Origin: an uncultured Flavobacteriaceae bacterium
GTDB lineage: Bacteria > Bacteroidota > Bacteroidia > Flavobacteriales > Flavobacteriaceae
Reading direction: 5' to 3'
NCBI GenBank assembly: GCA_947494565.1
Contig: CANLVG010000001.1
Coordinates: 1 to 64,000 of the forward strand
DNA length: 64,000 nucleotides
Program-made: the position numbers and the translations under genes
Part shown: positions 1-57,161 of the stretch, one piece after another
Numbering within the stretch: the first letter of the stretch is position 1
Layout: each line of letters begins with the position of its first letter
The notes under the pieces: model-generated
Seen by the model: the letters and a program-made list of their open reading frames with translations, nothing else
Told to the model about the DNA's origin: nothing
The model's database searches: none

Positions 1-561
1 GGACCTTTCTCCTTCGACGTCGACGGTACCCCCGATATGGTATCCGGTCTTTCCCTTGAGGGCGAGCGCATGGGCAGTAACAGTACGTTCGTGATCACTG
101 ACGACCAGGGCAAGATATTGGGTCTTCCCCCGACGCTCGAAGCGGTCGAGGGCGTTGATTTCGACGGTGCCGGTGCGGGCACGTGCCTGATCTGGTACCT
201 TCGTTACGAGGACGGCCTTGTGGGCGCTGAGATGGGCCTTAACGCGAACGACCTTATGGGCTGTTTCGACCTTTCCAACTATGTGGAGGTTGTGCGCAAC
301 GATCCAACAAGTGGTAAAACATCGGTTAGTTTGTTTCCCAATCCATCTACGGATAAACTGAATATATCAGTAGGATCCAAAGACGTGAAAAACGTGAGCG
401 TTTCACTTTTTGACTTTGGCGGTACCGATATCACCGACAAAATGAGACGTAATAGTGAGGAAGGTCTATCGTTTGACGTAAATGGCATTCCTGCAGGTAT
501 CTACTTGGTAAGGGTCAATGACGGCCGAACCGTAACTACCAAAAAAGTCATTATTAGATAG
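1..561 (+). CDS. C-terminal part of a large modular secreted protein with type IX secretion sorting domain (partial)
   Basis: The reading frame is open from the first base, so the start lies outside the window. The visible 186 residues have two parts. Residues 1-97 are one module of the kind repeated in very long flavobacterial surface proteins, with the phrases DDQGKILGLPP, DFDGAGAGTCLIWYL and GCFDLSN. The last 80 residues are a type A sorting domain for the type IX secretion system: a FPNPSTDKLNI motif, a GIPAGIYLVRV motif and a basic end. The protein is therefore probably exported and attached to the surface or released. Base use changes sharply near position 300: the module is G+C-rich with many GCG, GAC and CTT codons, whereas the sorting domain is ordinary for the window. 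The role of the module is unknown to me. Confidence 0.85.
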   Translation, partial: GPFSFDVDGTPDMVSGLSLEGERMGSNSTFVITDDQGKILGLPPTLEAVEGVDFDGAGAGTCLIWYLRYEDGLVGAEMGLNANDLMGCFDLSNYVEVVRNDPTSGKTSVSLFPNPSTDKLNISVGSKDVKNVSVSLFDFGGTDITDKMRRNSEEGLSFDVNGIPAGIYLVRVNDGRTVTTKKVIIR

Positions 562-590
562 GTTTTAATTCCATGTTGTTTAGTAAAAGT

Positions 591-619
591 CCTCGGAATT
601 CGTTCCGGGGATTTTTTTT
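591..619 (+). terminator. Rho-independent terminator
   Basis: An 8-bp stem (591-598 with 603-610, one G-T pair) closes a TTCG tetraloop and is followed by eight T residues. It lies 30 bases after the stop of the secreted protein, which it should terminate. Confidence 0.85.
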
Positions 620-758
620 GTTAAGAAAAACTTAGGGGATATAACAAGAATATCCCTAACCGTTTCTAAAAGTTTACTTTTTCGTGAAACCCGCACAACC
701 TCCTAATTAGTTCTTTGCACAAGACAATTACAATAAGTTAAAAACTAAAAAAAAAGTA

Positions 759-2663
759 ATGAAAAGAATGAACAAGTTTGCCTATACCGTATTGGCATTT
801 TTAACACTAACTATTATATCATCTTGTGATGATGATGAACAAGACCTTATTGTTCAAGAACAACAAGAGGAAGAACAAGAACCGGAACAACCTATGACCG
901 ATAATAGTCAATCGGTCGTAATCAATGAGATAAAGTATCTCGGGGAGGATACCATTGAAATTCTGAACAACGGAAATGATACAGTGGACCTTAACGACTA
1001 CTGGTTGTGTCTCGGACCGGGACAGTATGTGCAGCTGAGCACCTTGACTCCTGTTAGTGGGTCTTTGGAATTGGCTTCAGGAGATTATGTAGTGGTCAAT
1101 TCTACGCTTCCTGATGCCCAGGGAGGCCTAGGTCTTTACAATTCCGATGCATTTACCAATGCCGATGCTTTGGTGGATTTTGTGCAATGGGGCGCAGCCG
1201 GAAGTGCACGGGAAAACATAGCGGTTGCCGCGAATCAATGGAGTGCTGGGGATTTCATTCCCCTAGTGGCGAATGAAGAGAGTTCTATAGCTTATGACGG
1301 CGAGGGCAATGGGTCAACAGATTGGGCCGAGACGGCTACGGTAACATTTGGTGCCGTTAATGTGGTCACCGAACCGGAAACTATCTCGTTGACTTCCTTC
1401 AACATAACGATTACCAACGTAGTGAATTATTTGGATGCACAAATTTTTAATACCCCTGACGGCGCTTCAGAGCCCGGTCCGGTAACTGTAGCTGGTGGGG
1501 CATACTCCGTGGATTTTCAAGCTGTACCAGGAACAAAACTGAATTTTGCGACGATGCAGGTGGTTTCCAATGATTGGTTCTATGGGCCAACCGGAGCTGG
1601 AGTGGCTTTATTTGAAAACGGTATTCCGGTAACCGGAGATATCACGGATCAAATCTATCTATGGGATTCTGGCACTGAAGAGGAAGATGAGGCCACCTTT
1701 ACGTCAGAACCTGGTGGAGCCGAGGCCGGTGAACCTGATGATGATATTACTGTTCGTATGGTAACTACGGATGTGACCGATATGGTCAAAGTCACTTTGG
1801 CTTATGATGAGCCTACAAGAACATTTACCTTGAACATTAAGAACATTCAAGGCGCCATGGCTACAGATCCTGTTATACTTTCTCCAGGTATCGTTGTACT
1901 TCATGCATTGGCCAATCCTTTGTTTGATGCGGGGCAGCCAGAAAGACAACTCGGATTGGCCAAGATCGCGGTACAAGGAAATCCGGCGGACTTATTCGAA
2001 TGGTTCACTGAAAAGGGGTCGACAGGAGCACCTTTACGTTTGTCATCAAGCTACAGTGTTTTCTCACCCGGAATCGTTTATGCCTTTGGCGATGCCAGTG
2101 ACCCTGTATTTACTCAAGGAGAGGCGGCCGTCGCTGGCAGTGGATTGGAAGAACTTGCCGAGGATGGCAACAATGGGGTGATGTTCGATTATGTTACCAG
2201 TCAGCTCAATTTACCTGCTGCGAAGAGCAATGAAGCGGCCCCTATCGGTCCTGGTGAGAGCCTGACCTTTACTTTGAATGACGTGCCAGAAGGGTATAAA
2301 CTTGGTTTCAATACGATGTTCGTCTTTACCAATGATTGGTTCTTGGCCTATAATAATTCAGGATTCCCACTGTGGGATGAGAACGGTTCCCCCAACAGCG
2401 GTACCGAGGCAACTTTGAAAACATATTTGTACGATTCAGGAACTGAAGTAGACCAAATGGTGGGCTTTGGTGCTGATCAAGCGCCATGGCAAGTCGGTCC
2501 GAATACGGGTGCTGCTGATGGTAATACGGCTGTCCGTAGGGTATCGGAAATCGAGGATGTCCAATTTGGAAAAGGCCTTATTTCTTCACCGGCCGGTGTT
2601 GTTGGAATCGAAGATCCAAGAGGAGGCTATAATGTGGTCAAGGTAACCGTGACGCCCAACTAA
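759..2663 (+). CDS. Lipoprotein with lamin-tail-like domain and two spondin-type domains
   Basis: The N-terminus is a lipoprotein signal: basic start, hydrophobic stretch, then SSC with the lipidated Cys at about residue 23, followed by an Asp/Glu/Gln-rich spacer. Residues 50-160 look like a lamin-tail domain (VINEIKY, IEILNNG, DLNDYWL). Residues about 210-370 look like a spondin N domain (ITITNVVNYLDAQIF, LNFATMQVVSNDWFYGP, LWDSGTEEDE-like, VKVTL), and residues about 430-634 repeat the pattern in shorter form (FSPGIVY, LGFNTMFVFTNDWFLAY, YLYDSGTE). Spondin domains in Bacteroidota are surface-exposed and have been linked to adhesion. No catalytic residues are apparent. The gene has its own terminator on each side, so it is probably monocistronic. 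The lamin-tail assignment is weaker than the spondin one. Confidence 0.8.
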   Translation: MKRMNKFAYTVLAFLTLTIISSCDDDEQDLIVQEQQEEEQEPEQPMTDNSQSVVINEIKYLGEDTIEILNNGNDTVDLNDYWLCLGPGQYVQLSTLTPVSGSLELASGDYVVVNSTLPDAQGGLGLYNSDAFTNADALVDFVQWGAAGSARENIAVAANQWSAGDFIPLVANEESSIAYDGEGNGSTDWAETATVTFGAVNVVTEPETISLTSFNITITNVVNYLDAQIFNTPDGASEPGPVTVAGGAYSVDFQAVPGTKLNFATMQVVSNDWFYGPTGAGVALFENGIPVTGDITDQIYLWDSGTEEEDEATFTSEPGGAEAGEPDDDITVRMVTTDVTDMVKVTLAYDEPTRTFTLNIKNIQGAMATDPVILSPGIVVLHALANPLFDAGQPERQLGLAKIAVQGNPADLFEWFTEKGSTGAPLRLSSSYSVFSPGIVYAFGDASDPVFTQGEAAVAGSGLEELAEDGNNGVMFDYVTSQLNLPAAKSNEAAPIGPGESLTFTLNDVPEGYKLGFNTMFVFTNDWFLAYNNSGFPLWDENGSPNSGTEATLKTYLYDSGTEVDQMVGFGADQAPWQVGPNTGAADGNTAVRRVSEIEDVQFGKGLISSPAGVVGIEDPRGGYNVVKVTVTPN

Positions 2664-2685
2664 AGAATTTTGTGTTTGTTTGTTT

Positions 2686-2722
2686 AAAAAGGCCTTGGAA
2701 AAGTTTCCAAGGCCTTTTTTTT
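2686..2722. terminator. Bidirectional terminator between convergent genes
   Basis: A perfect 10-bp stem (2691-2700 with 2705-2714) has a 4-base loop. It is followed by eight T residues on the plus strand and preceded by A residues, giving a T run on the minus strand. It serves the spondin lipoprotein and the convergent small membrane protein. Confidence 0.88.
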
Positions 2723-2742
2723 GCCATAACATCAATATGTTG

Positions 2743-3222
2743 TTATTCCCATGAATCGATATGGTTCATATCGTCAAAATTATAATCTCCGACTCTATCT
2801 TTTCGATACTTGAAGGCTAATAATGTAAGACCAATAAGTAAGAAGTGTAAAAGGAGTATCAAAATGCCTACCGGTAAAAAGGCTCCCGGTAATAGATGAA
2901 ACTCATAATCGCCATAGGTAGAGAGCACATGAAGACTTTCAAATGCCTTATAGATGTATACGATAAGTATGACATAAAGTGCATACTCCAAATTTCGCAT
3001 TTGGGGATCGGTCATTTCATCTTCCTTGATCTTAAACCAAAGTACATAAAGAAAAACCAGATGTATGAGGGTCAGAATGGGAAAAATATAATTATCCAGT
3101 TTGAAAAAATAGAATTTCCCTGTGTAAGGGCCATAAAAGTTAAAGATTACCAGCGTCAATAGTACGATCGCAGATAGAATATAACTCCTTTTTAACGTAA
3201 ATAGTTGTAAAATGGGTTTCAT
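2743..3222 (-). CDS. Small multi-pass membrane protein of unknown function
   Basis: A 159-residue protein with four predicted membrane segments (about residues 15-33, 44-64, 80-97 and 116-137) joined by short loops. A basic N-terminus and an acidic, polar C-terminus suggest both ends face the cytoplasm. I recognise no family or catalytic motif. The gene is convergent with the spondin lipoprotein and shares its terminator. About 180 bases of non-coding DNA separate it from the next minus-strand gene, which also encodes a small four-helix membrane protein but is not visibly homologous. Confidence 0.65.
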   Translation of the reverse strand: MKPILQLFTLKRSYILSAIVLLTLVIFNFYGPYTGKFYFFKLDNYIFPILTLIHLVFLYVLWFKIKEDEMTDPQMRNLEYALYVILIVYIYKAFESLHVLSTYGDYEFHLLPGAFLPVGILILLLHFLLIGLTLLAFKYRKDRVGDYNFDDMNHIDSWE

Positions 3223-3402
3223 AATAAGTAGGTTTCTGGCGTTTGGGCACCAGGTCTGCTATTTTAAAACGACCACCTACTTCGTTTATTTAAAATATTC
3301 GATGAAGCGCCAGTAATGTTGGGTAACCTTAAATAATAGTGGTGAGGTACGCCTTTGAACGACATGAAATGATACGCTCCGAAACAATGAAATCAACTGG
3401 AA

Positions 3403-3840
3403 TTAGGTAATCCACCTGCGATCTGCCGCGATTTTCGAAAAGATATAGAGAAGCGCCCCTATGATAATTACAGCAATCGGTAAAATGGTACCCTGTACCA
3501 TATCGAAAACCTCTGTAGCATTGGTCATGAAGAAGTAATAGCAGGTGCGTGCTATTAGAGCTACCAGCGAAAGTAGGAACAGGGGAGTGGCCCATTTTTT
3601 TCGCACGAGAAGACCGATACAACCCAAAGCCCCGCCGAAAACGGCCAAAGCATACGCAGCGGTCAACCAAACCGGTTGGGTTTCGAAAATGGCCCTTTGC
3701 GCATCGCTCAAGGCCGCCCTCATTTCATCTTTCATATAAGCCTCGATCAAATAGAAGTAGACGCCTATAAGATTCCACAAGAGGCCCAGAACAGCCAGTA
3801 CCCAAAACCAAATGGTGGGTTTGATTCTTGATTGGTTCAT
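3403..3840 (-). CDS. Small four-helix membrane protein, conserved type in flavobacteria
   Basis: A 145-residue protein with four membrane segments at about residues 8-28, 60-80, 86-105 and 115-135. The N-terminal motif (WFWVLAVLGLLWNLIGV) followed by a charged segment rich in Asp, Glu and Lys (KDEMRAALSDAQRA) matches a hypothetical protein type I have often seen in flavobacterial genomes, but no function is known to me. The 133-base gap to the divergent truA-like gene should hold promoters for both. Confidence 0.65.
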   Translation of the reverse strand: MNQSRIKPTIWFWVLAVLGLLWNLIGVYFYLIEAYMKDEMRAALSDAQRAIFETQPVWLTAAYALAVFGGALGCIGLLVRKKWATPLFLLSLVALIARTCYYFFMTNATEVFDMVQGTILPIAVIIIGALLYIFSKIAADRRWIT

Positions 3841-3973
3841 TGTTTAGGTGGTTTATGGTTTACTGATGAAATTACAAAAAAAATGTTATGGTTGTTGAGA
3901 TTTGACATTTTCTTGAGGTAAGGGTTTTCATATTCTGGTCGATGACCTACTTTTAAGTGCAAAGCAGTCAATT

Positions 3974-4762
3974 ATGCAAAAAGAACGATTCTGTTACTTG
4001 ATAAGGGTTCAATATTTGGGATTTCGTTATAGTGGATGGCAAAAACAGCCTAATCAAAAGACCATTGAACAAATGATATTGAAAACACTTCGGTTTGTCT
4101 TGCCCGATAACAAAACAAAGGTTTTGGCGGCAGGCCGTACCGATGCTAAAGTTTCGGCCCTGGAAGCCGCTTTTGAACTTTTTATTGACGGCCCCTTGGC
4201 GGACAACCGCCTGTTCTTGGAGGAATTCAATAAAAATCTACCTCCCGATATTCGGGCTTTACATATCAATGAGGTGTCGCAAGAATTTAATATCATTCAA
4301 CATAGTAAGCGCAAAGAGTACGTGTACTTATTTTCTTTTGGTATAAAAAACCACCCGTTCTGCGCTCCTTTTTTGGCGAACATTATCGAATCTCTTGATA
4401 TTCAGATCATGAAAGAGGGAGCCCGCGTGTTCGAAGGGGAACATGATTTTTCAGCATACACGTCTCGCATGCAGGAAAACTCCAAATTTCTAAGAAAGAT
4501 AGAACGTTGTGTTATTCAAAATAATACCCTTTTGTCCGCAAACTTCTTTCCGGAAACGAGCTATGCGCTACACATCACCGCTACGGGATTTATGCGCTAT
4601 CAAGTCCGTATGATTATGGGGGCACTAATTGAATTGGGGAAGGGAAAGCTAACAGTACAAGAAATCGAGGCATCCCTTAAGGGTTCGCACGTGACACCAA
4701 TGACTTACGTCGCTCCGGGTTCCGGATTGTTGTTAAATAAATTGGAATTCAAAGAAAACTAA
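3974..4762 (+). CDS. truA: TruA-family tRNA pseudouridine synthase, divergent member
   Basis: TruA enzymes isomerise uridines 38-40 of the tRNA anticodon arm. The protein shows the family landmarks in order: an N-terminal LxRVQYLGFRYSGWQ strand, the catalytic Asp57 in GRTD, a HDFSAYTS motif near residue 157 and a FMRYQVRMIMGALIELG helix near residue 210. The catalytic motif continues AKVSA where the usual family motif has xGVHA, and the region after it is unusual, so this may be a second, specialised paralogue rather than the canonical enzyme. Length (262) is normal for the family. A 41-base gap separates it from corA on the same strand. Confidence 0.8.
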   Translation: MQKERFCYLIRVQYLGFRYSGWQKQPNQKTIEQMILKTLRFVLPDNKTKVLAAGRTDAKVSALEAAFELFIDGPLADNRLFLEEFNKNLPPDIRALHINEVSQEFNIIQHSKRKEYVYLFSFGIKNHPFCAPFLANIIESLDIQIMKEGARVFEGEHDFSAYTSRMQENSKFLRKIERCVIQNNTLLSANFFPETSYALHITATGFMRYQVRMIMGALIELGKGKLTVQEIEASLKGSHVTPMTYVAPGSGLLLNKLEFKEN

Positions 4763-47129: not shown

Positions 47130-50100
47130 CTACTCCGATATCGTCAAAATGCTCCCTTTTATCCAGTGCTTAAATTCATCTCCATAATACAAATAGGCAT
47201 TACTTGCAGGAGCTGTGTAGTTTCCGGCAACTTCTGCTTTTAGGTCCAAATTGATAGTTTTTGTTTCGTTTGGCCCCATTTCGCGCCAGTACAATACCAG
47301 ATAATTGTCAAATACCTCATAATATGCGAATTCCTTTTTTTCCAAGAGCTCCTTCAACTGCCAAGGTTGGGCAGATGCTCCAGATGGTATTCCAATTATT
47401 GCGGTTGTCATTGGCAATCCGTTTGGTTCCTTGTTCTTGACCGATATTTTCATTCTAACAACATCGCCTACGCGATATGATTTTGGTACGATTTCTGTTT
47501 TTAAGGCTATCTTACAGTTTGACGAAGAGTCGGGCAAATCACTGTCCCATCTAATATTCATATCATACGGAAAACTCACTTCGGGATTATTGAACTTGAT
47601 GTGGAGGGTTTGAGTGCCTTCCCCAATATACTTTTCTAAGCTATCTATTCGAATTTTACCGTTTGAACTTGTATTCAGATAGGTTCGTACCAGCTTTCCG
47701 TTCAATTGAAGTTCAACGATATTGTCTTTGCCGATGATCTTTCGCTTCTGAAATTTTGTATAAGTAATAAGTGCTTTTAAAGACATTGCGGTTGACTGGG
47801 TAGAACCAAACCTTCCATACGCTCGACTACGCACTAAGTGCTTAATGCCTTTTTGAATCAGCAACTCATTCGTTTCAAAATCGCGCATCAACGCCAACAA
47901 GGTAAAAGCCAAGGTTTCGAGTTTCTTTGCATTTCCGTATGAACGGGTAATGGTATTCTTGACCGGAAGTTTTCCGAAGCCATGATTCTGAATATTCAAT
48001 TTTAAATAGGACATTAGATTTTCGTAATCCGATGTTTTCTTCAGGTTATGACTTGTAAGTGCCGTGATGGCCAGTTTATAGGTGTCCAAGCTATCCAAGG
48101 CATTGAAATAGGCAGTCCGATACTCCTTCTCTATGTCTACTTTTGTATCCGTTTCCGAAATGGCATAGACGATATATGCGTTATTCACATCTGTTGGTGC
48201 ACTTGAGAAGCCATATTTTCCTGTGTTTTGAAGAAAACCTCCTTTTCCGTCTCTTCGACCTTGCAGCCATTTGACAGTTCTATGGATCATTTTTTGGTCA
48301 ACACCGTCGTACACCGTGGCCATTTCCTTGAACTGCATGAGTCCATAGGCCGTCAAAGCCTCATGTGGCGGGGTGTCGCCATACCATTCGAATCCGTTTT
48401 CCTCAGTTTCATACGCAGCCATCTTTTGATAGCCCTCAGCTATAAACTTTTGCGCCTTTCTTTCTATTCGTCGTTTATTCTTACCTGTTTCCCTTAAATA
48501 TTTAAGAATCAGAATATTCGGATAAGTCGTTGATGAAACTTGCTCAAAACAACCATAGGGTTGTCTGATCATTGAAGTAATGCCACTAGTGACATCACCT
48601 ACTATATCAGTGTACAAATTAAATTCGGCGGAAAGTGAATTTGGAACGACTCGCCCTACATTAAATTTGAAGTTTTGGCTCTCAGTCCCTGATATTGAGG
48701 TTTCAACGGGAAAATATGGGCTAACCACGGTGACCTCTTTATGGACGACATCTTGATAGGCTTTCGATTTTACGGCTACCCTAATCCGTATATCGCTCCC
48801 TTTGGTTTTAGCCAGTACACGAATACTTTTCATTAAAGTAGTCCCTGCTTCAATGGTAACCATTTTATCGATCTTCTCGATTAGTTCAATATTTTTGGGT
48901 AGATGAACCTCTAAGGTGGAAAATAAGGTTTGATCAGATTCGTTGTTAATGGTCAATGGTAACTCAATAATATCACCGATGCTCATGTAGTTTGGCATTT
49001 TGAAATCAACAGTGAGCATCCTTTTGGTATTGTAGTTCTTTTCGCTTCTACCTAAAAGTCCGTTAGATCCGACTCCTTCAGCGGTAATATTAAATGAGGT
49101 TACAGCATCTGAATTATAGAATTCAAAATTTGCCTCACCCTGTGCATTGGTCTGTACTACGGGATTCCAATAAATGGTAGGTCTGAAATCAGTTCGTTCT
49201 TCCGGAAGCTCCTGCCCCTCGTAAATAGGAATATAGAATTTTGCCGGGGTGTCAAACGAATTTCCACGGTTTCCATAGAAACTTCTCGCCGTATAATTCT
49301 TTAGTTTTTTGTTGTTCAACTTTTTCTTGGAATGGTATGAATAAGAACTCTTCTTTGTGGAAATCAATACCACTCCGTTACTTGCCCGTGAACCATATAG
49401 GGTTGTGGCGGCAAGGTCTTTTAACACTGAAATACTGTTTATTTGATTCGGATTGATATCCATTTGTCCCTGAAGCTCTCGAGGAATTCCATCGACGATG
49501 ATCAACGGTTGGTTGTTTCCTGACATAGTGGACATACCTCGAATATTTATTTTGGTCTCAGCTCCTGGTACGCCTGAGGTTTGAGTGATATGCACCCCAG
49601 CTGCTCTGCCTTGTAATAGGGTCGCCATATTTTCTTGCGGTTGCCAATCGTCTGTTTCAACTATACTAACGCTGCCTGTAATATCCTTTCTAAGGGAGGC
49701 ACCATACGCAGTAACAATTACCTCATCGAGGGCTGAGGCATCTTCTTTCAGGGACAAACTGGCTTTGGCCTCGTTCTTTATGGGTTTTGTATTGGGTCTA
49801 TTCACGCCAAAGAAGCCTTCAGGAGCATCTGGGTTTGGGATTCCGCTTTTACTTTCAGCTGTACTTGACAAGCCTCTATTACGGCTTTTTTCACGAATAT
49901 AGAGTGGTTTATTGTCGTCAGTATAAGCAACCAAAGTAAATCGATTACTACCGGAAAGTTTAAAAGCGAACTTACCCTCGTCATCAGTGTCTAAAGTCAA
50001 TACGCGACCATTGTAGTTGTCGAATAGCAATAAATGTGCTCTTGTCGGGTTTTCGGCTGTGTCCACGACCACCCCGTGTTGGATGGATAGTTGTTCGGGT

Positions 50101-51719
50101 TGATACGTGGCATTGAATAACGTGACCTTATTTCTTTTGATATACTGACGCCACCCGTGGGTCAGCATGACATAATCAAGAGCCTTTTTGGACTTAGGCT
50201 CATTGGTATCAAAATAGAAAGTCGGTTTATGTATTTTTCCTCGAAGTTCCGAGGAGAGTAACAAGTATGACAAAATATGGTCTTGCTTGTCATCTGCAAA
50301 TGAGAGCAGTTTATTATCGGTAACCGCGATAGAGACATTCGATGATACTGGTTTTCCATTCTGGTCTTTTGTTTTAAGCCTTATTGCTACTTTTTCACGA
50401 GTATCAAAGGTTTCCTTTTCTATTTGGATGTCAATATTTAACTGTTTTTCATGATTTATGAAAACCAAGCGTTCTGCCAAAATATATTCCGATGCATCCA
50501 AAATGGAGAACTTCGTAATACCCATTGGGAATTCGGAAGTGTTTACCCTAACAGTATTGTTGTTAGGGGGAATGGCGGTTCGATACAGTTCTCCACTACT
50601 ATTCGAAACTTTTACCTGTAGCTTTTCCTCTATGTTAGAAAAGACAGCAAGGGCAATTGTGTTTTTCTTTTCGACTATAGAGAACTTCACACCATTTTGG
50701 GCAACCTCAGGAAGCTTGATTTTTCGTTCTGATGTAATAGGCGCCGTTATTTGGGCAAAATATGTTTGACCCAGTGTAGGTTCGAATTCAAAACCACCCA
50801 TGCCATCATGGTAGCTTTCGAAGTTTGAAATATGGTTTCCGGTTTCATCAACTATTCTTCCGGAAATATCGGCGGGTTTACCAAATTCATTAAGTGATTT
50901 GAAGGCAATGGTATTGCTCGTGCCAGCAATCAATTGGCCGCTTTCCGGAAAAAATTGTACATCTAAATTGTCTAAAAGTATAGGGACACTTCTTGAAATC
51001 GATTCCGTGGATCCGTTGTGCGGAATTAAAATATTGACAAGAACATCCGTGCTTTGAAGATCATCAGGTAGCGTAAATATTGGCTTTAATTTTCCTTTCT
51101 CATCGGTTTTCAATTTCTGCATCACATAACTTTTGCCAGATACCATCACAGCCATGCTGACCTCTTTTCCTGATAATGGGTTGTTTTTCAAGTCTTTTAC
51201 CTCAAAGTCCGCCCTTACTTGAGAAGCGCTTCCGTACCCTTCTTTTTCAAATTTCAACTGCATTAGCAGATTCGGCTGTACTATTTTTTGCACGGTAATC
51301 TCTTTGGTGAAAAAGTGATCTTTCCCATAATTACGCATCCAATTCGTATACATTTTCAAGGTGTAGATACCCCCGACCCAATTCTTGTCAATCTTAAAAT
51401 TGCCGTAGGAGTATCCATTGCGAACAGGTATTCGCAACGTTTTTATCACCGACCCTTTCGGGGATATAAAATCGGCATACATCATTTCGCTCATCGCTGA
51501 AATAGTGTTGCTCTTGTTTACAACATAGGCTTTAAACCATACGGTTTCATCTGGAAAATATAATGGTCTATCGGTCTGAGTGTATATCTTTTCGACCAAA
51601 TCAAGTTTGGGCTTGTCTCGGTTGAAGGAAACCAATACGAGACTTATAATAAGAAGTGTCGCTATTTTTCTGAGCGTATGTATGATGCTGCGCATGGGTT
51701 TAGATTTTAAATTTGACAT
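47130..51719 (-). CDS. Alpha-2-macroglobulin-like protein with an embedded SusC-type TonB plug domain and thioester motif
   Basis: A 1529-residue exported protein. Domains: signal anchor (about 10-30), MG2 domain near 45-145 (YTQTDRPLYFPDETVWFKAY), further MG-like beta domains, a carboxypeptidase-regulatory-like unit near 560-610, and a SusC-type plug at about 665-790 (EVIVTAYGA, LQGRAAGVHI, INIRGMSTMSG, PLIIVDGIP, ISVLKDLAATTLYGSRASNGVVLISTKK-like). An A2M domain near 850-950 follows, then an alpha/alpha thioester domain with Cys1057 to Gln1060 in PYGCFEQ, and a C-terminal receptor-like beta domain. The start overlaps the end of the barrel gene by 20 bases; ATG 51695 is an alternative without overlap. 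The plug is normally part of the barrel protein, so its presence here is the main oddity. Confidence 0.87.
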   Translation of the reverse strand: MSNLKSKPMRSIIHTLRKIATLLIISLVLVSFNRDKPKLDLVEKIYTQTDRPLYFPDETVWFKAYVVNKSNTISAMSEMMYADFISPKGSVIKTLRIPVRNGYSYGNFKIDKNWVGGIYTLKMYTNWMRNYGKDHFFTKEITVQKIVQPNLLMQLKFEKEGYGSASQVRADFEVKDLKNNPLSGKEVSMAVMVSGKSYVMQKLKTDEKGKLKPIFTLPDDLQSTDVLVNILIPHNGSTESISRSVPILLDNLDVQFFPESGQLIAGTSNTIAFKSLNEFGKPADISGRIVDETGNHISNFESYHDGMGGFEFEPTLGQTYFAQITAPITSERKIKLPEVAQNGVKFSIVEKKNTIALAVFSNIEEKLQVKVSNSSGELYRTAIPPNNNTVRVNTSEFPMGITKFSILDASEYILAERLVFINHEKQLNIDIQIEKETFDTREKVAIRLKTKDQNGKPVSSNVSIAVTDNKLLSFADDKQDHILSYLLLSSELRGKIHKPTFYFDTNEPKSKKALDYVMLTHGWRQYIKRNKVTLFNATYQPEQLSIQHGVVVDTAENPTRAHLLLFDNYNGRVLTLDTDDEGKFAFKLSGSNRFTLVAYTDDNKPLYIREKSRNRGLSSTAESKSGIPNPDAPEGFFGVNRPNTKPIKNEAKASLSLKEDASALDEVIVTAYGASLRKDITGSVSIVETDDWQPQENMATLLQGRAAGVHITQTSGVPGAETKINIRGMSTMSGNNQPLIIVDGIPRELQGQMDINPNQINSISVLKDLAATTLYGSRASNGVVLISTKKSSYSYHSKKKLNNKKLKNYTARSFYGNRGNSFDTPAKFYIPIYEGQELPEERTDFRPTIYWNPVVQTNAQGEANFEFYNSDAVTSFNITAEGVGSNGLLGRSEKNYNTKRMLTVDFKMPNYMSIGDIIELPLTINNESDQTLFSTLEVHLPKNIELIEKIDKMVTIEAGTTLMKSIRVLAKTKGSDIRIRVAVKSKAYQDVVHKEVTVVSPYFPVETSISGTESQNFKFNVGRVVPNSLSAEFNLYTDIVGDVTSGITSMIRQPYGCFEQVSSTTYPNILILKYLRETGKNKRRIERKAQKFIAEGYQKMAAYETEENGFEWYGDTPPHEALTAYGLMQFKEMATVYDGVDQKMIHRTVKWLQGRRDGKGGFLQNTGKYGFSSAPTDVNNAYIVYAISETDTKVDIEKEYRTAYFNALDSLDTYKLAITALTSHNLKKTSDYENLMSYLKLNIQNHGFGKLPVKNTITRSYGNAKKLETLAFTLLALMRDFETNELLIQKGIKHLVRSRAYGRFGSTQSTAMSLKALITYTKFQKRKIIGKDNIVELQLNGKLVRTYLNTSSNGKIRIDSLEKYIGEGTQTLHIKFNNPEVSFPYDMNIRWDSDLPDSSSNCKIALKTEIVPKSYRVGDVVRMKISVKNKEPNGLPMTTAIIGIPSGASAQPWQLKELLEKKEFAYYEVFDNYLVLYWREMGPNETKTINLDLKAEVAGNYTAPASNAYLYYGDEFKHWIKGSILTISE

Positions 51720-54540
51720 TTAATCCGACCTCGCTTAGGATAGGATTATTGAAGTAGTTGAGGCCTTGACTTGAGGTCTGATCAAAAAGGGCTCCATAAG
51801 GTGTAGCACCCCTAAACTTTGAAATCGTCATCAGGTTGGTACCATAGATACTAAAGCGTAGCTCACGGAAAAAAGGATTTTGTTTCGGGCTATTAACGGT
51901 ATACGAAAAGTTCAAGGATTTTAGGTTAAAATAGCTCCCATCAACAATGGCCTCCTCCGCAACCCCTTCAAAACCATAGCGTACAAATCGATTTCCCGCT
52001 AGTCCGTTTTCAGGATTAGCAAAATCTACCGGAATGGTATTGGGTTCACCTTGCTCGTTGACACCTTGAAAGACAAAACCCGTAACCATTCTTTCTGAAG
52101 CCGATTGCTCTGAGGTGCCCAGATAATTCAGTACGATTTGGGTTCCGTTCCATACATCGCCACCTTTTTGATAATCGAGGACAAAATCAAGGGTAAATTC
52201 TTTCCATTTTATGGTATTTGAAAAGCCTAGATTAAAATCTGGAATGGGGTCACCAATGATTCCTAACTCAGAATCTACCAATGGAAACCCTTCTGAATCA
52301 ATGATGATAGCGTTCTGCGAATCCCTACGAAAACGGGACCCCACCAAAACACCTGCCGATTCTCCCTTTATCAAGTTTTTTGAAATCGATGAGAACCCGG
52401 CAATAGGAATCCTATTTTTTGGGAGCAATAGGTCTAAAACCGTAGTGCGGTAGGTTGAGAAAACTAATTTTGGAGTTATGCTAAAGCCTGAATTCTCTTC
52501 GTACAAGGTGGTGTCGAATGTCCATTCAACACCTGAATTTTGAATATCAGCTACGTTTTGAAGTGTATACTCGCCAGCCGTCCAAACAGGGAATACGCTG
52601 CCTTCGATAGTATTTGAATAGTACACCGTATTTAAATTCCAGCGGTGGTCGAAGAGGTCAAAACCGAAATCAAAATCGATTTCATAACTTTTTTTCGCTT
52701 CCAAGCTTACTAAGTCCGACGCGAAAAGGTCATTGTTGGCAGTATACTCCAAGCTTTCTTCCGGGAGTAGTCGTAAACTATTGTGACTTTGGTTGTTATA
52801 AAAGAGGTTGAGATAGTTGATGTCATAACCAACACTTGCTGAAAGATCTAGTTTTTGTATAAAACTCGAATGCCAGTTGCTGGCGAACCTATATTTTAAC
52901 AGTAAGGTGGGAAGAAACCACTTGCTGTTTTGTTTGGTCGAGGTAAAAGCATTGTTTATGAACGATGCTTTGGCCTTGTTCCCAAAAAAATCAATATCAA
53001 ATCGAGTAAACCAGCGAAATAAGGCTCGACTTATATTTCGGTTAAGACCAAATGTGTTCTGTGGGTTGTCAAAAGTCGCTTCATCAAATCCGGTGCGTTC
53101 GACCAAGGCGTACCGCAGATTCTCATTGGAATAGGAAAAAGAAGAGATTAAATTAAAATCATCTCCGTAGGAGTCCCAATCGATACTAATATTGGCATCA
53201 AAAATATCCTCTTCAAGGATTTTATCGCTACTATATCCTTCCAGGAAACCTACTGTATTTTTGAAAAGCCCGAATTTTTGATCGTTCTTACTAAGGGTAT
53301 AGCCAAGTTTGGTGTTGAGTTTAACTTCGTCTCCAAGGTTTAGTTCGTTGTTTAAAATACCGATCCACACCTCATTATCAAGTCGATTTCTGTTACTGTT
53401 CAATAACCATTGGGGGTTGTTCAAGTTTGATACGCTGAAACTACGTTGCATACCGTTAGAAAGGGTACTTGATTGGTTGTTTTCAAAAGATGGCGGAGTG
53501 CCTAAAGCGCTGAATAAGAGGTTGTTTTGAAAACCATTAATATTAGGTTGGTTTTCTCTTGATGTAAGGTATTTCACTTGTGCATTCCATTCCAAGGTAT
53601 GGTACCCTCGCTCGTTGTTAAAGCTTATGGTAAATTCATCTAGGTTGCTACGTTCCACCCCGTACAAATCTTTCCCTCTTTTGTTCAAATAGTCAAAACC
53701 ATAAAAACTATTTGCCGTAGAAATATTAAAAAACAAGTTGTTTGAAGTTTTAAGAACCGCTTGAAAAGGACTATTATCATAGGCAATAGCGGTATTGCCG
53801 TTGCCGGTTCCGACCGGTATTAAACTCCCATTTTGATCAAAAGGATTTGCACTACCGTCAAATTCTAAAACCGATAGTTCCGGACCATATGAGAAAGGAA
53901 GATCAGCTATCGGGTCGAAATAGGTTGTCATACCGTTAAGGGGTGCCCCTTGGGCAAATATTTTCTGCAGGGCCGGTAAATTTCGGTCTTGTACAAAGCG
54001 CATCCCCAATAACGAAGACGCGCCGACTTCAAAATAAACATCCGAATCGAAATAGGTGACCTTGACTAGGTCTTTGTTGACCGATATATCCTTAATTCTT
54101 GAGGTATTGAGATATTGACCGGAATTGTACGTTTTTGGACTTTCTTCTATGCTCGGTATGATCAGAAACGAGGGTAGGTTTTTTCGAACCGAAGATTGGT
54201 ATGTTGTATCCAATATGGTTTTCACGGGAATCTTTCGAACTACTGTAGCAATTTGTTCCTCTCCGAACATGGATGCAGTCACCAAGACTTCTCGGGTCTG
54301 TGAACCGATATAACTCACTACCAAGATATCGCCTACTTCGCATTTAATTCGATAATCGCCATCAAAATCAGTTTGCGTACCTGTGCTTTTCCCTTTGATA
54401 ACGATATTGACCCCAGGTAGCGGTAATCCGTCAGCATCCTCGATAGTACCTGAGACGAATCCAATTTGCGCAAAGGCAATAATTCCTGAAAATAAAAATA
54501 GCGTAAAAAAGAAACGACGGAAAAATAGTTGGTGTTTCAT
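51700..54540 (-). CDS. SusC/RagA-like outer-membrane barrel with regulatory domain but no recognisable plug
   Basis: A 946-residue outer-membrane protein. A signal peptide ends near FAQ (residue 25). A carboxypeptidase-D-regulatory-like domain covers 28-100 (VSGTIEDADGLPLPGVNIVIKG, VSYIG). In SusC proteins a plug of about 120 residues with the motifs LQGRAAGV, IRG, VDG and VLKDA...YGSRA follows, but none of these is present. The region 100-185 is short and unlike a plug, and barrel-type sequence begins by about 200 (SYGPELSVLEFDG, LIPVGTGNGNTAIAY). Barrel strands run to the C-terminal GLNVKFKI. No SusD gene is adjacent. The plug appears to be provided by the overlapping downstream gene. Confidence 0.85.
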   Translation of the reverse strand: MKHQLFFRRFFFTLFLFSGIIAFAQIGFVSGTIEDADGLPLPGVNIVIKGKSTGTQTDFDGDYRIKCEVGDILVVSYIGSQTREVLVTASMFGEEQIATVVRKIPVKTILDTTYQSSVRKNLPSFLIIPSIEESPKTYNSGQYLNTSRIKDISVNKDLVKVTYFDSDVYFEVGASSLLGMRFVQDRNLPALQKIFAQGAPLNGMTTYFDPIADLPFSYGPELSVLEFDGSANPFDQNGSLIPVGTGNGNTAIAYDNSPFQAVLKTSNNLFFNISTANSFYGFDYLNKRGKDLYGVERSNLDEFTISFNNERGYHTLEWNAQVKYLTSRENQPNINGFQNNLLFSALGTPPSFENNQSSTLSNGMQRSFSVSNLNNPQWLLNSNRNRLDNEVWIGILNNELNLGDEVKLNTKLGYTLSKNDQKFGLFKNTVGFLEGYSSDKILEEDIFDANISIDWDSYGDDFNLISSFSYSNENLRYALVERTGFDEATFDNPQNTFGLNRNISRALFRWFTRFDIDFFGNKAKASFINNAFTSTKQNSKWFLPTLLLKYRFASNWHSSFIQKLDLSASVGYDINYLNLFYNNQSHNSLRLLPEESLEYTANNDLFASDLVSLEAKKSYEIDFDFGFDLFDHRWNLNTVYYSNTIEGSVFPVWTAGEYTLQNVADIQNSGVEWTFDTTLYEENSGFSITPKLVFSTYRTTVLDLLLPKNRIPIAGFSSISKNLIKGESAGVLVGSRFRRDSQNAIIIDSEGFPLVDSELGIIGDPIPDFNLGFSNTIKWKEFTLDFVLDYQKGGDVWNGTQIVLNYLGTSEQSASERMVTGFVFQGVNEQGEPNTIPVDFANPENGLAGNRFVRYGFEGVAEEAIVDGSYFNLKSLNFSYTVNSPKQNPFFRELRFSIYGTNLMTISKFRGATPYGALFDQTSSQGLNYFNNPILSEVGLNVKFKI

Positions 54541-55939: not shown

Positions 55940-57028
55940 TTACTCGCAACCACCTGTGAAACCAGTGGCATCGAACTTCGTCTGCACGGCGCCTTCCCGA
56001 CTGCCGGTCTGTACACTGATGGCCAAGTTGTTTTCACCGCCTCGTTTCGGACTGCAATATTCGAACAAGTAAAAACTGTTCGCGCGTTCACGCACTTTGA
56101 TGGAAATATCGTTGAAAGTCGTTTCCAACTCTTCTTTGTTGGTCGCAAAAACGCTGCCGGTCTTTCCGATATCGCTGAGCACCTGGGTGTCGATTTCACC
56201 ACCAAGACCGATAGTGAAAAACGAAATGTTCTGGTTAGCGTCATCAACTTTCTGTTGGGCCGCTGCTTGGCTGAATCGAGCCGCTTGATCGGTACCATCC
56301 GTAAAGATAACTACTGAGGCCGCTCCAATCTTATCCCCTTGAATGCTGGCCGTTAGCAGCTCATTGGCAATATCCGCAGATTTAATGACCGCACCGTATA
56401 AATCCGTTGAGGGGTCATTGCTGATATCCTCGGTAATTCCGTTGATAGCCGCGGTCAATTCCTCTTTCGATGAAGTCAAGTCGTTTAATAGGTGTAGTTC
56501 ATCTTCCCCATCGAACCAATAAATAGCCATTTTGAAAGATTCCTCTTGGGTTGTGGGCATCACATTATCCACAAAACTAAGACTCGCTTCCTTTAATTCC
56601 GTAAGACTACTGCTTAACACACTATTACTTAAATCTAGCACCAATAGTGCATTGTTATTGAACACTTGGGCGTTTGAGGAGATACGAGCTGCGGATTCGG
56701 ACGTCGAAATCGTATTGAAACATTCGTCATTGATTCCCTGTTCGTAAATGGTAAATTGATCCGCTTCGAGTCCGGCTACAGGTTGTCCATCGGTGTCGGA
56801 TACTTTGAACAGAATAGAGACCTTTCCGGGTAGGGTCGTGAATTGTTCTTGTATGGAAAGTACCAAGTCACCCTCGCCTAGGCCCAAGCACTCATCTACC
56901 TCTTTACCCTTGCCGAGTCCCTCGCCTCCGGTATTCAGTCCAAAAAAGACATCGTCGTCGGCATTACCGCAAGAAATGATAAAAGAAATCGCAAAAAAGA
57001 GTACAATACGTTTGGTGAAGGTTTTCAT
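55940..57028 (-). CDS. VWA-domain lipoprotein
   Basis: A 362-residue lipoprotein. ATG 57028 is chosen because it gives a normal signal (MKTFTKRIVLFFAISFIISC, Cys at 20); an ATG seven codons upstream at 57049 is less likely. A Gly-rich spacer follows, then a beta domain (residues 50-110) and a von Willebrand factor A domain (about 125-320). The metal-ion-dependent adhesion site is complete enough to bind metal: DLSNS in LVLDLSNSVLS, a Thr in DPSTDLYGA and an Asp in IFTDGTD. Such domains mediate protein contacts at the surface. The C-terminus has two Cys residues. Likely monocistronic. Confidence 0.83.
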   Translation of the reverse strand: MKTFTKRIVLFFAISFIISCGNADDDVFFGLNTGGEGLGKGKEVDECLGLGEGDLVLSIQEQFTTLPGKVSILFKVSDTDGQPVAGLEADQFTIYEQGINDECFNTISTSESAARISSNAQVFNNNALLVLDLSNSVLSSSLTELKEASLSFVDNVMPTTQEESFKMAIYWFDGEDELHLLNDLTSSKEELTAAINGITEDISNDPSTDLYGAVIKSADIANELLTASIQGDKIGAASVVIFTDGTDQAARFSQAAAQQKVDDANQNISFFTIGLGGEIDTQVLSDIGKTGSVFATNKEELETTFNDISIKVRERANSFYLFEYCSPKRGGENNLAISVQTGSREGAVQTKFDATGFTGGCE

Positions 57029-57161
57029 TTTCAAAATTATTGGGTTCAACCATCAGAACGGATAAATGACATTTAAATTATGACAGATTTGAAGTTTTTA
57101 TGTTAAACATTGTTAAGGTTTTCGTAGTTTTCCGTTTCATTCAGGATTGCGATACCAGACC

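Follow-up and report, generated by a model that had tools for sequence, protein, structure and literature searches.

A SusC-type plug and TonB box carried by a thioester macroglobulin beside a plugless barrel: a putative split TonB-dependent transporter of Bacteroidota

In the TonB-dependent transporters known to us, gate and barrel belong to one polypeptide. The locus described here, from an uncultured Flavobacteriaceae bacterium, lies in a 64,000-nucleotide stretch of DNA (the whole of which we call the window) and raises the question of what closes a SusC-type barrel when its own chain has no plug and the next gene encodes a macroglobulin-fold protein that has one. Our reading, to which we give a probability of roughly 0.75, is that the pair encodes a split SusC-type TonB-dependent transporter whose gate and TonB handle are placed on a periplasmic thioester macroglobulin; that figure excludes any use of the thioester as a trap.

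The gene pair and its domains

Both open reading frames were confirmed on the minus strand (Table 1). The earlier sequence-only reading had them overlapping by 20 bases, which rests on the first ATG of the macroglobulin gene and is probably a start-codon artefact: a second in-frame ATG lies at 51695, 4 bases past the barrel stop, the macroglobulin starts in relatives align with it, and a 4-base gap is the commonest spacing in the pairs of relatives (27 of 76). We reject the overlap as a feature; with the ATG at 51695 the macroglobulin probably has 1521 residues and its gene does not overlap that of the barrel. A pseudogene or frameshift that split one SusC in two is rejected as well, as both frames are intact and kept in 88 distinct loci and the plug lies inside the macroglobulin. 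The closest named relative of the pair, among the best 80 of 511 relatives, is from Maribacter algarum (70% identity over the C-terminal half of the macroglobulin). Promoter and terminator scans were at chance level (23 promoter-like sequences with 22.2 expected, 10 terminator-like with 7.5 expected), and Rfam and tRNA scans of the window were empty.

Table 1. Features of the gene pair, with macroglobulin domains numbered on the 1529-residue version throughout, and positions of the f2 loci within their own sequences
Feature	Position	Strand	Basis
Plugless SusC-type barrel gene, 946 aa	51700..54540	-	Pfam CTD without Plug; TIGR04056 barrel part only; AlphaFold, Foldseek
CTD / N-terminal extension of barrel protein, residues 29-91	54268..54456	-	Pfam PF13715, E 5e-13
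Barrel proper, residues 149-946	51703..54096	-	Model secondary structure and pLDDT; PDB profile match
Macroglobulin-fold gene carrying plug, 1529 aa (likely start 51695, 1521 aa)	47130..51719	-	Pfam; start codon; 4-base gap
MG2, macroglobulin residues 44-127	51339..51590	-	Pfam PF01835, E 4e-10
Weak CTD-like domain preceding plug, residues 548-598	49926..50078	-	Pfam PF13620, E 4e-4, below cut-off
TonB-box-like motif DEVIV, macroglobulin residues 665-669	49713..49727	-	Sequence
Complete SusC-type plug, macroglobulin residues 678-783	49371..49688	-	Pfam PF07715, profile 3-107/107, E 2e-16
A2M / MG7, macroglobulin residues 848-933	48921..49178	-	Pfam PF00207, E 1.5e-11
Thioester domain (TED), macroglobulin residues 1036-1320	47760..48614	-	Pfam PF07678, E 1.4e-27
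Thioester motif CFEQ, macroglobulin residues 1057-1060 (GCFEQ 1056-1060)	48540..48551	-	Sequence
bMG10-like C-terminal domain, residues 1449-1515	47175..47375	-	Pfam PF17973, E 0.003, below cut-off
f2 locus L183	2360-5206
f2 locus L231	212-3278
f2 locus L232	9928-12911
f2 locus L233	52-4896
f2 locus L234	796-3839
f2 locus L237	10090-13002
f2 locus L238	903-3749
f2 locus L239	2565-4091
f2 locus L242	9780-11413

The 946-residue protein is, as had been read from the sequence, a CTD followed by a SusC barrel without a plug. Pfam found CTD domains and no Plug match at E ≤ 1, and the SusC/RagA family TIGR04056 matches residues 263-945 solely through its model positions 287-980, scoring 148 bits against a cut-off of 368. 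A complete plug at residues 100-200, which would have undone that reading, was found neither in the window protein, nor among the families listed (25 of 49) for the first 400 residues of 72 barrels, nor by a home-made plug profile run on the barrels of 91 intact pairs, and a plug hidden inside the barrel protein is rejected on these grounds. A TonB-box-like motif falls within the first 200 residues of one of the 72 barrels. The barrel folds confidently on its own in an AlphaFold model (mean pLDDT 89.2, 68 relatives), in which the predicted strands begin at residue 149, right after a low-confidence linker that stands where cis SusC proteins have their plug. Its best Foldseek match is the SusC BT2264 (5fq7, BT2261-2264; E 3e-43, TM 0.67), the first 22 matches being all SusC/RagA-type chains, and a PDB profile search aligned positions 156-943 with 5fq6_B 162-984 (E 1e-50). 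As a control, 20 SusC regions of the window genome were fetched; 19 gave an open reading frame, every one with CTD and plug in cis, and the remaining region (L191) gave none.

The 1529-residue protein carries MG2, A2M and TED domains together with a complete SusC plug, in agreement with the sequence-only reading, and the SusC signature TIGR04057 scores above its cut-off in it. Residues 647-792 match Bt1763 (5t3r_D 89-233, E 3e-29) and residues 653-790 match BT2264 (5fq6_B) 12-168, while the barrel family covers 5fq6_B 162-984; by these alignments the two chains jointly account for one solved SusC with almost no overlap. A TonB-box-like motif stands at the start of the plug in 63 of 72 relatives' macroglobulins, compared with 23 of 34 cis controls; passages of the work on the SusC Bt1763 (PMC7782687) give DEVVVTG as the TonB box tested there. 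The pair is like SusC/RagA systems (BT2264, Bt1763, RagA) in barrel sequence and fold, in the N-terminal CTD/NTE and in the sequences of plug and TonB box, but differs from them in that plug and TonB box are on another polypeptide, tethered at both ends to macroglobulin domains, and in that SusD is absent beside the window pair.

The macroglobulin domains and the TED with its CxEQ thioester motif are present as in bacterial type I α2-macroglobulins, and the motif GCFEQ is found in all 104 TED-bearing rows of our collection. Foldseek matches include human A2ML1, Salmonella A2M, ECAM and other macroglobulins. With E. coli YfhM/ECAM, a type I α2-macroglobulin, the protein shares MG2, MG7, TED with thioester motif and an MG10-like end, but it has a SusC plug before MG7 and an outer-membrane barrel as partner. 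A signal peptide is present and, unlike the E. coli and Salmonella macroglobulins, which are annotated as lipoproteins, 71 of 72 relatives lack a lipobox (one has a lipobox-like motif); the protein looks periplasmic.

In the AlphaFold model of residues 425-1529 (mean pLDDT 75.3), MG7, TED and MG10 are good, and the plug is of low confidence (pLDDT about 26-61 over residues 678-783). In isolation, the plugs of other transporters fold poorly, which the low value would fit, although a shallow alignment would give the same result. The slot before MG7 that the plug occupies holds a charged linker in the plug-free relative L137, and the Pfam bait-region profile has no match in the window macroglobulin. 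In another plug-free relative (L124, gene 1-4638), residues 732-809 fill the slot with two CTD stretches and a TonB C-terminal domain, so that the slot, as far as its sequence can tell, accepts different TonB-related modules.

Linkage of plug and barrel among relatives

Eight of 149 genomes from the window's family, its own included, have the C-terminal half of the macroglobulin (E ≤ 1e-20), and in all eight a plugless barrel lies directly upstream. A scan with one genome per species, of which the best 80 of 511 relatives were kept, gave a set that for this reason leans to close kin; the 104 TED-bearing rows comprise the window, the first relatives and loci fetched later. Among them are 91 intact plug-bearing genes with an upstream view (88 distinct), and directly upstream of all 91 is a same-strand barrel without a plug match, separated by 2-6 bases in 75 pairs. 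Two frame-broken macroglobulin genes (L101 and L121) also have both plug and barrel, which brings the distinct plug-bearing loci with an upstream plugless barrel to 90 of 90, whereas the four intact plug-free relatives with an upstream view (L133, L137, L139 and L182) have none. The pairing is conserved. Plug-free rows number 7 of 104, the other three being L124 and L129, whose upstream region is not in view, and the gene fragment L135; these three are omitted from the adjacency count, as are L093, L105, L111 and L112, which have the plug on contigs that end upstream. Loci fetched twice (L042/L064, L043/L066 and L047/L107) count once, the barrel of L132, cut by a contig end, is scored as present, and L133 is scored as plug-free despite a weak partial Plug match below cut-off.

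Named carriers among the best 80 of 511 relatives include Winogradskyella, Aquimarina, Psychroserpens, Tenacibaculum and Kordia, and further Dokdonia, Leeuwenhoekiella, Chitinophaga, Labilibacter and Roseivirga. In a phylum sample of 395 genomes the macroglobulin exceeded 500 bits in five, four with plug and barrel and one (G277) without either. A barrel-profile search of that sample, taking the best candidates per genome, gave 37 genomes: the four top matches are plugless and lie in the same four genomes as the plug-bearing macroglobulins, and the other 33 have 31 frames of 1023-1153 aa and two short ones (453 and 540 aa). Twenty-six of these 33 were fetched as loci, 21 with a plug and five truncated where the stretch ended. 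In genome G540 both kinds of macroglobulin occur, the plug-bearing copy directly following a plugless barrel and the plug-free copy being L124; five other plug-free copies come from genomes whose best barrel matches have frames above 1040 aa, the ordinary size of a SusC. Relatives were found in 1 of 98 genomes of the class of G277 (G277 itself) and in 16 of 296 of the order of G352, all 16 with the pair. Judged from these sequences, the plug of an outer-membrane pore is very probably carried, in many Bacteroidota, by the product of a neighbouring macroglobulin gene.

No SusD domain occurs in the 10 nearest neighbour proteins on both sides of the window pair, so that the absence of an adjacent SusD gene stands as first described; the domain scan covered these 10 neighbours, the flanks of relatives having been clustered only. 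SusD is the extracellular lid of SusC, and because the macroglobulin looks periplasmic, a literal replacement of SusD by it is unlikely. Genes for an M14 carboxypeptidase and an amidase adjoin the window pair, as they do in 8 of 72 loci, which belong to a single clade. Upstream of the barrel a VWA-domain protein (window 55940-57049) is kept in 8 of 72 loci, all of them near relatives of the window, and at L184 a 156-aa protein with two plug half-copies (3623-4093) is found directly upstream of the barrel-macroglobulin pair.

The carboxypeptidase and amidase bear on an idea tentatively raised in the sequence-only reading, capture and import of proteins or peptides: the pair would be a trans-plugged importer whose thioester macroglobulin is a periplasmic receiver that keeps polypeptides for digestion. 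That account has the trans plug in common with the split transporter that we favour and differs in the purpose of the trap. In its favour, the solved barrels closest to ours are BT2264 and other chains of SusC/RagA type, and RagA is by the title of 6slj a peptide importer; carboxypeptidase and amidase genes next to the pair (window and 8 of 72 loci) would suit it too. However, these peptidase neighbours are limited to one clade, no SusD or surface binding protein stands beside the window pair, and a covalent trap, being single-use, would be ill suited to bulk uptake. We consider this purpose unlikely.

A different arrangement is seen in loci of another family of the same order (f2, Table 1). 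Here genes for an ECF sigma factor (Pfam, 3 of 3 scanned) and for a protein that combines a single hydrophobic stretch with a TonB-box-like motif and a plug of its own lie upstream of the pair; Pfam Plug was found in 5 of 7 of these single-TM proteins scanned, most of which have VWA/YfbK domains. In our reading of the sequence this protein may be an anti-sigma factor, and a plug on an inner-membrane regulator beside a plugless barrel suggests sensing of the state of the barrel.

Exchange of plugs with ordinary SusC proteins

In a quick tree of the macroglobulin C-terminal half, the plug-free L182, L137/L139 and L124/L129 branch closest to the outgroup, and L133 and the fragment L135 are nested inside, which makes three state changes in all. 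This fits one gain of plug and barrel and later loss, the direction not being proven. L133 has lost the barrel and has a degenerate plug stretch that keeps 10 of 32 SusC-conserved residues and gives a weak Pfam match. The gain of the plug is compatible with a single event and two or three changes of state, so the 90 loci cannot count as independent, and a plug-state test on the tree found only 2 independent pairs, both concordant (p 0.5).

Barrels and plugs have different histories. In a comparison of 31 trans pairs with 34 cis SusC proteins the trans barrels form one clade (support 100), whereas the trans plugs are not monophyletic: forcing 27 of them together costs 88 log-likelihood units (AU p 3.5e-5, a test that omitted four long or odd trans plugs and one VWA plug). 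One case is Dokdonia pacifica: over 133 residues its trans plug shares 80% identity with that of an ordinary SusC encoded in the same genome, compared with 58-61% for its match to trans plugs from two further Dokdonia genomes. The similarity extends from the TonB box as far as the plug's end (71% over 154 alignment columns, gaps included), and the barrel is 26% identical to that of the same cis SusC. We read this as a TonB-box-plug cassette swapped in by recombination with a cis SusC. Such a swap could be tolerated only where a trans plug is functional in a barrel of SusC type, and the exchange therefore suggests that the trans plug has kept the behaviour of a working SusC plug. The window plug shows no such recent exchange, its best same-genome cis matches reaching at most 48% identity, compared with 62% to the Maribacter trans plug.

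The constraint on trans plugs resembles that on cis plugs. Per-column entropies of the two sets correlate (rho 0.79, 130 columns), and trans plugs keep a median of 26 (range 21-31) of the 32 SusC-conserved residues, compared with 30 (26-32) in cis. The sharpest loss is that of the terminal glycine, from 91% to 26%, at the point where the cis plug enters the first barrel strand. Given the adjacency (90 of 90 against 0 of 4), the plug exchange with cis SusC proteins and the absence of SusD beside the window pair, the macroglobulin very probably supplies the plug in trans, as the sequence-only reading had supposed, and with it the TonB box.

Plugs also occur apart from barrels in the window genome. 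Orphan plugs were found in a DUF4139 protein, an M56 peptidase with TonB_C repeats and two small proteins (L057 5117-7219, L058 2799-4805, L056 5376-6026 and L060 5759-6262). Four MG2 proteins, 778-802 aa long, break off where MG7 begins (L049 7052-9391, L050 6530-8938, L051 6881-9256 and L052 7784-10120); among the three scanned (L049, L050 and L052) Pfam Plug was found in L052 only. Like the long macroglobulin, these MG2-plus-plug proteins of about 780-800 aa have an MG2 half, a plug or plug-like stretch and an MG7 start in the same order, but they end before the TED and have no adjacent plugless barrel in the stretches examined. A further MG2 protein (L054, 588 aa) lies two genes from a 918-aa protein that resembles a TonB receptor by eye.

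Because barrel-less plugs of this kind (in the DUF4139 and M56/TonB_C proteins, the small proteins and the MG2 paralogue L052) occur in the same genome, a plug alone is no proof of plugging, and the macroglobulin plug might instead be a TonB-docking or protein-protein module held outside a barrel that is shut by its own loops or by another protein. As a control for the residue counts, seven other plug stretches keep 10-28 of the 32 SusC-conserved residues, a mixed result in which two orphan plugs keep 23 and 28, within the trans range. A partial distance test gave r 0.047 (p 0.23) for plug and barrel, hence no excess correlation, and MG2N (0.48) and MG7 (0.34) unexpectedly did correlate with the barrel; plug exchange would blur such a signal, an explanation made after the fact. 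These results and the low AlphaFold confidence of the plug speak for a module, as does the spread of orphan plugs over many non-barrel proteins. However, a module outside the barrel leaves the adjacency unexplained, and equally the loss by the barrel of exactly its plug and the exchange of whole TonB-box-plug cassettes, and we regard it as improbable.

Proposed working of the split transporter

On the observed anatomy, complementarity, linkage and conservation of the pair, and on the plug exchange with cis SusC proteins, we propose the following for the split transporter. The first gene would encode an outer-membrane barrel of the 22-strand class that lost its plug, and the second a periplasmic macroglobulin-fold protein with a SusC plug and TonB box ahead of MG7, in the position that in plug-free relatives is taken by a charged, bait-like linker or by other inserts. 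Since both ends of the plug of TonB-dependent transporters are on the periplasmic side, having a periplasmic domain attached at each end would not keep the plug from entering; very probably it sits in the neighbouring barrel, filling it from the periplasm. Opening is probably TonB-driven: TonB would pull the TonB box of the macroglobulin and draw the plug out, so that a wide pore opens just above the thioester domain.

It is debated for TonB-dependent transporters in general whether the plug comes out of the pore in its entirety. Passages of one structural study of SusC proteins describe a plug that can exit the barrel whole, leaving a pore of about 20-25 Å (PMC7782687), and a plug-carrying macroglobulin would stand exactly where such a breach occurs. 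A coupling of the plug to the thioester is more tentative. A pull on the plug-holding segment, or cleavage in it, could strain the hinge before MG7 and so arm or expose the thioester, and a protease or protein coming through would then be bound covalently at the pore mouth. In this guarded gate the importer's plug would double as the bait of the thioester macroglobulin, and withdrawal of the plug by TonB, or the severing of its linkers by a protease on its way in, would at once open the pore and fire the thioester, so that the entrant is covalently tagged or trapped. It would be a complement-like check on outer-membrane import; we offer it as speculation.

A split export or signalling pore, opened from the periplasm or reporting to a sigma factor with the macroglobulin as scaffold, would accommodate the ECF sigma gene and the gene for a TonB-box- and plug-bearing single-TM protein upstream of the f2 pairs, the TonB_C domain in the slot of plug-free L124 and the published use of a TonB-dependent transporter for secretion (PMC6434023). 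But neither of those two f2 genes has a counterpart beside the window pair, and a thioester motif in 104 of 104 rows is unexpected in a mere scaffold, so that we think it improbable.

A literature search, with subscription journals mostly outside its coverage, found no paper on a macroglobulin-borne plug or a naturally split SusC, and nothing pertinent on an arginine-glutamate cluster between plug and barrel. An analogue is SprA and Plug of the type IX secretion translocon, in which a large Bacteroidota barrel is likewise closed by a separate plug protein, although there the system is one of export; to our knowledge that Plug is unrelated to TonB plugs. Passages of PMC12611786 state that loss of plug and porV opens the SprA channel.

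For the split transporter proposed here, the natural division would make whole-plug exit testable, because plug and barrel can be expressed, mutated and timed apart. The natural exchange between cis and trans plugs suggests that SusC plugs are modular, and a bacterial thioester macroglobulin could be assigned both a definite location, the mouth of an outer-membrane pore, and a candidate partner.
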